In this document: positions 5,417-27,252 of the stretch, piece after piece
Numbering within the stretch: the first letter of the stretch is position 1
Layout: each line of letters opens with the position of its first letter
Origin: Halorussus amylolyticus
GTDB taxonomy: Archaea > Halobacteriota > Halobacteria > Halobacteriales > Haladaptataceae
Length of the DNA stretch: 37,687 nucleotides
NCBI RefSeq assembly: GCF_004143485.2
Contig: NZ_ML974134.1
Location: forward strand, 1 to 37,687
Direction of reading: 5' to 3'
Translations under genes and position numbers: made by a program
Notes under the pieces: generated by a model
Seen by the model: only the letters and a program-made list of their open reading frames with translations
Told to the model about the DNA's origin: nothing
Database searches by the model: none

Positions 5417-5820
5417 TGCCGGTCCAGCATCGCTTCGAGTGTGTCGCCTGCGGCCACCGAATCCGGGCCACCGGCGAGGATAGCGACGCGGCCCGCCAGC
5501 GCGCCCGCGAGCGCGGGGTCACCCACGTCAACGACGTCCACGCCGACCGCCTCGCGAACTCGACTCGGTGGCCCGACCGCCTCGCGCCCGGCGACCTGCT
5601 CTCGGGTGACGCGACCTACGGCACGCTCCACGGTTGGCTCGCGCCCGCCGACGACCTGCTGGTATGTGCCGACTGCGGCTACTACTTCGGTCGGGTCGAG
5701 TCGGCCGACGACCGCACGCCGGTCGGCGAGGCCGGACTGGTGTGTTCGACCTGCTACGAGCGTCGAGTAGACGACCGCGCCGATTCGGTCGCCCGCGCCA
5801 TCGACACTTTCCTTCGATAG
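5416..5820 (+). CDS. Zinc-ribbon protein of unknown function
   Basis: The 134-residue protein has three CxxC pairs: Cys9/Cys12 (FECVACGH), Cys84/Cys87 (LVCADCGYYFG) and Cys110/Cys113 (LVCSTCYERR). The last two could make one zinc ribbon. A helical region rich in Arg and Ala (about 25-50) lies between the first and second pairs. No catalytic motif is visible. The ATG overlaps the last base of the upstream TAA, which points to translational coupling with the gene at 4496. The longer open frame upstream is an artefact of high GC. Nucleic-acid or protein binding would be typical of such ribbons, but this is inference. Confidence 0.72.
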   Translation: MPVQHRFECVACGHRIRATGEDSDAARQRARERGVTHVNDVHADRLANSTRWPDRLAPGDLLSGDATYGTLHGWLAPADDLLVCADCGYYFGRVESADDRTPVGEAGLVCSTCYERRVDDRADSVARAIDTFLR

Positions 5821-10662: not shown

Positions 10663-10693
10663 GCGCGCTCGACGGGTCGGCGGTTTCGCGCTC

Positions 10694-10798
10694 GGTGACA
10701 CAAACCACGGGAAACGGCCGGTGACACAATCTCCGGAAACAGCAGACTGACCAAACCACAGATTACGGCCGACCGACCAATCTACCGTGGGTGGGAAT
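10694..10798 (+). repeat. Tandem 26-base repeats, copy 1
   Basis: Units begin at 10694, 10720, 10746 and 10772, exactly 26 bases apart. The first two open GGTGACACAA; the third and fourth are degenerate (ACTGACCAAA and ACCGACCAAT). Most carry a GGAAA-like core and end GGCC. The last unit runs into GGGTGGGAATG, where the hairpin begins. There are no variable spacers, so this is not a CRISPR array. The same arrangement with 27-base units precedes copy 2 at 27029. Confidence 0.75.
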
Positions 10799-10913
10799 GA
10801 AAGGGGCCGCCCGGTCGCGCTTGCATGGTCGCTTGCTCGGCCACTATCTCGGCCGGGTGTTGCTGAGAGGCCGAGATATGCCGAGCAACGACCGCGACCG
10901 GGCGGGGGCTTTC
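10799..10913 (+). ncRNA. Structured hairpin element, copy 1 (candidate ncRNA)
   Basis: The segment folds as one long arm. The outer stem pairs GAAAG with CTTTC, then CGCCCGGTCGC with GCGACCGGGCG, flanking a purine-rich internal loop. An 8-base bulge follows on the 5' side. GGTCG then pairs with CGACC, TTGCTCGGC with GCCGAGCAA, and TATCTCGGCC with GGCCGAGATA, closing a 14-base loop. A second copy at 27135-27252 keeps the outer stem sequence but replaces the inner stems with compensatory changes. No protein-coding frame is plausible. Transcription is not shown; a DNA cruciform is the alternative. Confidence 0.65.
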
Positions 10914-11024
10914 GGTGCGTTCTCTGTGGTTGGTTTCGTTGTTCGTAGCGACCGGGCGGGGGCTTTCTGGCTGTTGTTGGTACTGGGTCTTTTGCGGTTT
11001 GTAGCGATTGGGCGAGGTTGCTAG
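10894..11024 (+). repeat. Repeated 3' arm of hairpin copy 1
   Basis: The 20-base arm GCGACCGGGCGGGGGCTTTC at 10894-10913 recurs exactly at 10948-10967. A degraded form (GCGATTGGGCGAGG) starts at 11004. Spacings are 54 and 56 bases, with G/T-rich linkers. The exact second copy could pair with the same 5' arm, so two alternative hairpins are possible. Copy 2 at 27135 has a single 3' arm. Confidence 0.7.
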
Positions 11025-26986: not shown

Positions 26987-27019
26987 GCGGTGGGTCGGCC
27001 GGTCCGGCCGACCCACCGC
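26987..27019. repeat. Perfect 33-base palindrome upstream of XPB
   Basis: GCGGTGGGTCGGCCGG at 26987-27002 pairs exactly with its complement at 27004-27019 around a central T. As RNA it would be a 16-pair hairpin, although the tightest loop would open two pairs. It lies 65 bases upstream of the XPB start and just before the 27-base repeat array, whose units also end GGCC. Confidence 0.75.
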
Positions 27020-27028
27020 GAATCGGCC

Positions 27029-27134
27029 GGTGACGCTTTCTATCGGAACTCAGGCGGTGACGCTTTCCACCGAGAAACACCCGGTGACACCCTCTACAGG
27101 AAATCGGCCGGTGACGCCAACCCCGGGTGGGACT
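27029..27134 (+). repeat. Tandem 27-base repeats, copy 2
   Basis: Units begin at 27029, 27056, 27083 and 27110, exactly 27 bases apart, each opening GGTGAC. The first two share GGTGACGCTTTC; all but the last contain a GGAA or GAAA core, and the third ends AATCGGCC. The last unit runs through CCCCGGGTGGGACTG into hairpin copy 2. The arrangement mirrors copy 1 at 10694. Confidence 0.8.
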
Positions 27135-27252
27135 GAAAGGGGCCGTCCGGTCGCGCAACGCTTGGTCGTCTCTGCGGGCAACTATTCGCGCCGACGCGGT
27201 GCGGAAAGGCGCGAATATCCCACAGAGCGACCGCGACCGGGCGGGGGCTTTC
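27135..27252 (+). ncRNA. Structured hairpin element, copy 2 (candidate ncRNA)
   Basis: The outer stem is nearly identical to copy 1: GAAAG with CTTTC, then CGTCCGGTCGC with GCGACCGGGCG, with one G-T pair. A 9-base 5' bulge follows. Then GGTCG pairs with CGACC, CTCTGCGGG with CCCACAGAG (one C-A mismatch), and TATTCGCGCC with GGCGCGAATA, closing a 15-base loop. Compared with copy 1, four pairs in the inner 10-base stem and five in the 9-base stem change on both sides and stay paired. Single-base bulge and internal-loop positions are also kept. Confidence 0.68.

Follow-up and report, generated by a model that had tools for sequence, protein, structure and literature searches.

The window, a 37,687-nucleotide stretch of Halorussus amylolyticus DNA, contains two copies of a repeat of about 100–135 bases that lies between genes across the salt-loving archaea. 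Its copies combine conserved ends with alternative interiors, are selected for the fold of the plus strand and constrained copy by copy, are lost by deletion, and follow outer-stem dialects. We read it as a family of intergenic hairpin repeats dispersed through haloarchaeal genomes, similar in kind to REP/BIME, BOX, SMR (small mobile repeat) and PATE (palindrome-associated transposable element) sequences, recognised as a folded single strand, a reading that we hold with evenly divided confidence. The marks of this general kind are found, namely many copies, intergenic position, a palindromic build and a copy number that varies between lineages, and copy number, genome-specific dialects and deletion loss look like those of a dispersed repeat family, so that the structured part of a mobile element, which the earlier note had also considered, may still apply.

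The exact 16-mer at the start of the element returned 47 copies in the genome of the window by sequence search, while a covariance model built from 37 of these found at least 85, a family size (about 85 copies in the same genome) that the earlier note had missed. The element is present in 17 of 18 Halorussus genomes and, with copy counts per genome being lower bounds, ranges between congeners from 0 (G009) and 1 (G013) up to at least 88 copies; G006 has at least 93 at an E-value of 1e-6. Among 391 Halobacteria genomes, 190 contain the 18-base motif with which the element starts, and these represent 62 of 86 genera; its reversed form, used as a control, has zero matches in the same set. Identical, equally spaced copies at 5480 and 31642 on contig C7 and at 5472 and 31634 on contig C16 of the window's genome (G000) reflect a duplicated stretch within the assembly.

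Both copies claimed by the earlier note are present, at 10799–10913 and 27135–27252 (all window features described here are on the plus strand unless stated), and they share the outer stem. Copy 1, a class II hairpin as judged from its fold, its covariation and a covariance-model score of 142 bits, consists of P1a (GAAAG/CTTTC, 10799–10803/10909–10913), a GGG/GGG internal loop (10804–10806/10906–10908), P1b (10807–10818/10894–10905), a variable 5′ bulge (10819–10826), P2 (10827–10831/10889–10893), P3 (10833–10841/10880–10888), P4 (10845–10854/10869–10878) and an apical loop (10855–10868). Copy 2, also class II by its fold and a score of 128.7 bits, has the corresponding P1a at 27135–27139/27248–27252, GGG/GGG loop at 27140–27142/27245–27247, P1b at 27143–27154/27233–27244, P2 at 27164–27168/27228–27232, P3 at 27170–27178/27219–27227 and P4 at 27183–27192/27208–27217. 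A pair-by-pair reading of both folds reproduces the nine two-sided changes claimed between them, four in the 10-pair stem and five in the 9-pair stem, the latter with one C-A mismatch. The fold energies are −78.7 kcal/mol for copy 1 and −73.8 kcal/mol for copy 2 (z of −5.5 and −4.2), values reached by no shuffle.

The conserved block begins nine bases further upstream than the earlier note had placed it, with the unpaired GGTGGGAnT at 10790 and 27126. This leader is GGTGGGAAT in copy 1 (10790–10798, conserved and unpaired) and GGTGGGACT in copy 2 (27126–27134). The window segment GGTGGGAYTGAAAG (10790–10803), which includes it, may resemble how type I-B CRISPR repeats of haloarchaea end at the 3′ side (GTGGGATTGAAGC). 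The flanking repeat units had also been overlooked, both the 27-bp units upstream of copy 2 and the 54–56-bp units downstream of copy 1. Ahead of copy 1, four recognisable degenerate units with a consensus of about GGCCGGTGACACAAACCACGGAAA can be read from the sequence at 10693–10789, and the same units precede most copies in the H. amylolyticus genome. Behind it, degenerate 54–56-bp units repeat the 3′ end of the hairpin (10914–11019), which recurs as GCGACCGGGCGGGGGCTTTC at 10948–10967 and, decayed, again at 11004–11017. Copy 2 is preceded by four degenerate 27-bp units (CCGGTGACGC..., 27020–27125), and just upstream of this array lies a perfect 16-bp inverted repeat (26987–27019, no strand assigned); similar strong GC hairpins precede the unit arrays of loci L001, L013 and L015.

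Across the family, two interior architectures are enclosed by identical ends (GGTGGGANTGAAAGGGG...GGGGCTTTC). All copies have in common the leader GGTGGGANT, the GAAAG/CTTTC base, the GGG/GGG internal loop and an outer stem of 10–13 bp. The class II interior, found in the window copies, in Haladaptatus and in one Haloarcula, combines a bulge on one side with two stems and carries TATC/GATA at the base of its apical stem. The class I interior (GCAAGCACCGCAG...GAGGAGCGCAGCGAG) is that of most genera and of three copies in the window's genome (L003, L005 and L016), and it contains the conserved unpaired motifs AAGCACCGCAG and GAGGAGCGCAGCGAG. One to several degenerate units lie upstream of the elements, and in Halorussus partial copies of the hairpin 3′ end recur downstream every 54–56 bp. 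A second element stands head to head with the first in 37 of 103 class loci, mostly 24–30 bp apart and often with a palindromic spacer. Some Halorussus copies (L007, L013, L021, L029 and L093) are followed by a further 3′ module, AGAAGCnAGCnACT...TATGAGAACCGC, and then by CCGCA(A/C)C repeated in runs. Several elements (L009, L025, L034, L044, L261, L147 and L207) have different small hairpin repeats inserted in them, among these TCGGAAGAC...GTCTTCCGA, GGTCACG...GTGACC and AAAATC..GATTTT, an arrangement that recalls SMRs inside PATEs.

The earlier note had concluded from two copies that the fold, not the sequence, is selected, and the larger set bears this out, with covariation in 20 of 41 class II pairs and 19 of 22 class I pairs. 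In the class II alignment of 37 copies from the window's genome, 97.2% of the cells pair and 153 cells carry two-sided changes; none of 500 shuffles and no slid control came near. Homologues are many and they covary, the opposite of what the note had named beforehand as counting against its view. The GAAAG/CTTTC base is nearly invariant, a single pair departing in 2 of 97 copies, and its pairing is therefore without support from covariation.

The two strands are not equivalent. The outer stems of 145 copies contain 30 G-T and 7 A-C combinations (p 2e-4). With all columns taken as aligned, 97 Halorussus copies have 50 G-T against 40 A-C, and 32 of the 40 A-C cells fall in the junction column 45/147, whose two bases probably do not pair in the copies concerned; without this column, which we dropped after the data had been seen, the counts are 50 against 8. 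Counted as distinct position-by-genome events with no column dropped, they are 35 against 10, from a covariance-model alignment that leans slightly to G-U. The excess of G-T over A-C indicates that the plus strand keeps its capacity to fold on its own, so that the folded single plus strand seems to be what is conserved, and this excess fits a folded RNA or a folded single-stranded DNA (ssDNA) of the same polarity alike. A double-stranded cruciform kept by palindrome correction predicts no strand asymmetry, so the DNA cruciform that the earlier note had proposed is disfavoured by these counts.

Constraint on individual copies was estimated from two genomes that are about 95% identical (G004 and G014), in which five orthologous pairs were compared. 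The elements differ at 21 of 620 positions (3.4%) and their noncoding flanks, taken as 60–80 bases, at 124 of 680 (18%; p 7e-19), whereas nearby, mostly coding DNA differs by 4.7%. Elements are thus about five-fold more conserved than their flanks, but the true constraint may be weaker, because requiring the model to find a copy in both species favours intact pairs; in one of the five pairs, flanks and element are equally conserved. Copies are frequently lost, and several have no partner in the other genome. Read base by base, one such loss is a microhomology deletion in which the hairpin has gone from between two GCT triplets and the stub GAAAGGGGCCGGTCGCTTTC (GGTGGGACTGAAAGGGGCCGGTCGC|TTTC) has stayed behind; similar stubs are seen at L103, L151 and L182. 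Two presence/absence loci were read for the target-site duplication that a MITE would leave on insertion: one is a hairpin deletion and the other has replaced flanks.

The outer stem also changes in concert. Its majority form is CCGCCCGGTCGC in 26 of 37 copies of the window's genome and CCGCCCGCTCGC in 28 of 40 copies of G006, so that the dialects differ by a single flipped base pair, in some 70% of the copies. The inner-stem types of P3 and P4 stay diverse and are drawn from a pool common to the two genomes. The dialects suggest that outer stems are homogenised, or that a trans factor specific to each genome selects them.

All of the 184 copies placed relative to genes fall outside those predicted with our own gene caller, which rejects a coding explanation and with it the match to coding sequence that the earlier note had named as a competing account of the pairing. 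The copies are intergenic and occur in both orientations; sense and antisense copies relative to genes number 18 to 5 in the window's genome and 35 to 30 in the whole class, and about half of all copies are found downstream of a gene encoded on the opposite strand. A cis-regulatory 5′ element or terminator was rejected on this random orientation across the class.

The serious alternative, possible if rather doubtful, is the one that the earlier note had raised first, a structured ncRNA family whose copies would be transcribed by read-through or from weak promoters and whose folded RNA would be trans-acting, for instance as the partner of a haloarchaeal RNA-binding protein. The G-U excess on the plus strand, the unpaired class I motifs, the constraint on each copy and the sense bias in the window's genome all agree with it, and a T-rich stretch just 3′ of the hairpin in Halorussus would also fit an RNA 3′ end. 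The ncRNA reading is nevertheless not borne out by the genomic context. A TATA-like site 45–16 bases upstream was found, with a strict pattern, at 0 of 204 copies and at 39 of 367 gene starts, which is moderate evidence against a dedicated promoter since the strict pattern is insensitive. The class-wide random orientation, the position of about half of the copies behind an oppositely oriented gene and the span of copy number between congeners also speak against it. Because promoter signal and consistent gene orientation are both missing, folded ssDNA is modestly favoured over RNA as the active form.

One reading of such a form, which we consider unlikely, is a functional site consisting of one DNA strand folded in one polarity and recognised only when single-stranded, with a founding copy beside plasmid single-strand-binding (SSB) genes and dozens of constrained chromosomal copies. 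In archaea it would play the part that ssDNA promoters, single-strand origins or attC-like recombination sites play elsewhere. A blast search with a class I locus matched 12 plasmids, 10 of which carry the element antisense to an OB-fold (SSB-like) gene and about 500 bp upstream of it; in Haladaptatus salinisoli a class II element is likewise about 500 bp upstream of such a gene. The noncoding stretch of about 500 nt between gene and element is strongly conserved across genera, contains large GC palindromes and is absent from Rfam. The plasmid loci (L233–L238, L240 and L242–L245) share one backbone and therefore count as a single observation. This fixed locus holds class I mostly and class II once, so that one interior can replace the other at that site.

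A further reading, less likely again, takes the element as an ssDNA signal for DNA transfer or replication, resembling Frpo/ssi or single-strand origins, in which the folded strand would recruit a polymerase or primase while the DNA is single-stranded. The plasmid copy beside the SSB gene would then show the original role, and the chromosomal copies would be derivatives. The recurrent position near SSB-like genes, the conserved stretch between them and a strand asymmetry that fits ssDNA point towards it; against it, the plasmid loci are not independent, the element is antisense to the SSB-like gene and the chromosomal strand pattern is unrelated to position. An orientation set by the replication strand was itself rejected, as strands show no clustering on two chromosomes. 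The eleven copies on contig 2 of G006, a 342-kb plasmid, are ordered ++++------- (p about 0.01, seen after the fact), an order that might reflect replication direction. Very improbable are neutral, functionless palindromes whose symmetry is maintained by template switching during replication or by gene conversion: each genome does have homogenised outer stems, and palindrome correction can yield two-sided changes without selection, but correction would erase the GGG/GGG loop, the asymmetric 5′ bulge and the 3-versus-1 internal loop, and neither the G-T/A-C asymmetry nor the five-fold conservation over flanks would be expected.

For the dispersed-repeat family that we prefer, the handle would be the leader, the GAAAG/CTTTC base, the GGG/GGG loop and the outer stem, which is near-uniform per genome. 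A trans-acting factor may recognise this handle on the folded single-stranded plus strand, and the copies, as a non-autonomous repeat, could multiply in a genome or undergo conversion among themselves. They would persist while the fold is intact and be removed by deletions that run from one short direct repeat to another at the hairpin. We infer active mobility from copy number and dialects, having seen no clean insertion matched by an intact empty site. The Y1 transposase (PF01797; TnpA/RAYT) was found neither in the window's genome nor in G001, G002, G003 and G016, despite 39–88 copies, and counts of Y1 and TnpB do not follow copy number (rho 0.18 and 0.19), so both were rejected as mobiliser. 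TnpB genes (in G000, G006 and G017) generally do not adjoin copies; one G006 copy (658106–658240) precedes a same-strand TnpB domain by about 1 kb. The constraint on each copy exceeds what a purely selfish repeat needs, and this, like the missing clean insertion, the missing mobilising enzyme and the T-rich stretch, counts against the reading we prefer.

About half of the sampled haloarchaeal genomes carry the element, some with 80–90 copies. Its repeat-like spread together with fold-level constraint on each copy raises the question of what role a folded single strand has between archaeal genes, and the sites could be flagged in genome annotation.

The family, which the earlier note did not recognise, is absent from Rfam, as the window and 13 class I loci gave no match and a relaxed E-value yielded nothing relevant. 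A tRNA or tmRNA identity was rejected, none being found, and so was a viral origin, the exact start motif being confined to two viral contigs, both of which lack the 3′ end; matches to the start motif in unrelated bacteria also lack the 3′ end and are due to chance. The papers searched, for words of its sequence, for repeats of haloarchaea and for structured RNAs of archaea, and outside the subscription literature and ISfinder, contain no description of it, and it is apparently undescribed and unnamed.

REP/BIME elements are dispersed intergenic hairpins of bacteria associated with RAYT, a Y1 transposase. The present element is likewise a dispersed intergenic hairpin, and strand-specific recognition of ssDNA would yield the asymmetry observed; however, it is much longer, has two classes and occurs at about 85 copies in a genome with no Y1/RAYT gene. 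BOX elements of Streptococcus pneumoniae are modular dispersed repeats with stable hairpins and variable unit numbers, similar in modular hairpin build and variable repeat units but different in sequence and lineage. Integron attC sites have a conserved base, an unpaired spacer and a variable terminal hairpin, with one strand folded and structure kept over sequence. All of these features recur here, whereas R′/R″ boxes and cassette arrays were not seen in the present family.

The nearest described elements, with clear differences, are the SMRs and PATEs of Haloquadratum (PMC3119063). SMRs of Haloquadratum walsbyi are commonly more than 95% identical and lie mainly inside other mobile elements (PMC3119063), whereas the copies described here are highly diverged in their stems, intergenic and joined by one set of ends across many genera. 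The likeness to SMRs, which rests on their published description rather than on sequence, lies in a size of about 80–110 bp, a noncoding nature, inverted terminal repeats, tens of copies per genome, a haloarchaeal host and unexplained mobilisation (PMC3119063). PATEs are IS605-related, with separate near-terminal palindromes related to IS605 ends (PMC3119063), whereas the present element is wholly one hairpin, generally lies apart from TnpB and occurs in a genome without Y1 transposase. With PATEs it shares a noncoding, palindromic and heterogeneous make-up, core deletions that leave end-only stubs, and other small repeats carried inside (PMC3119063).
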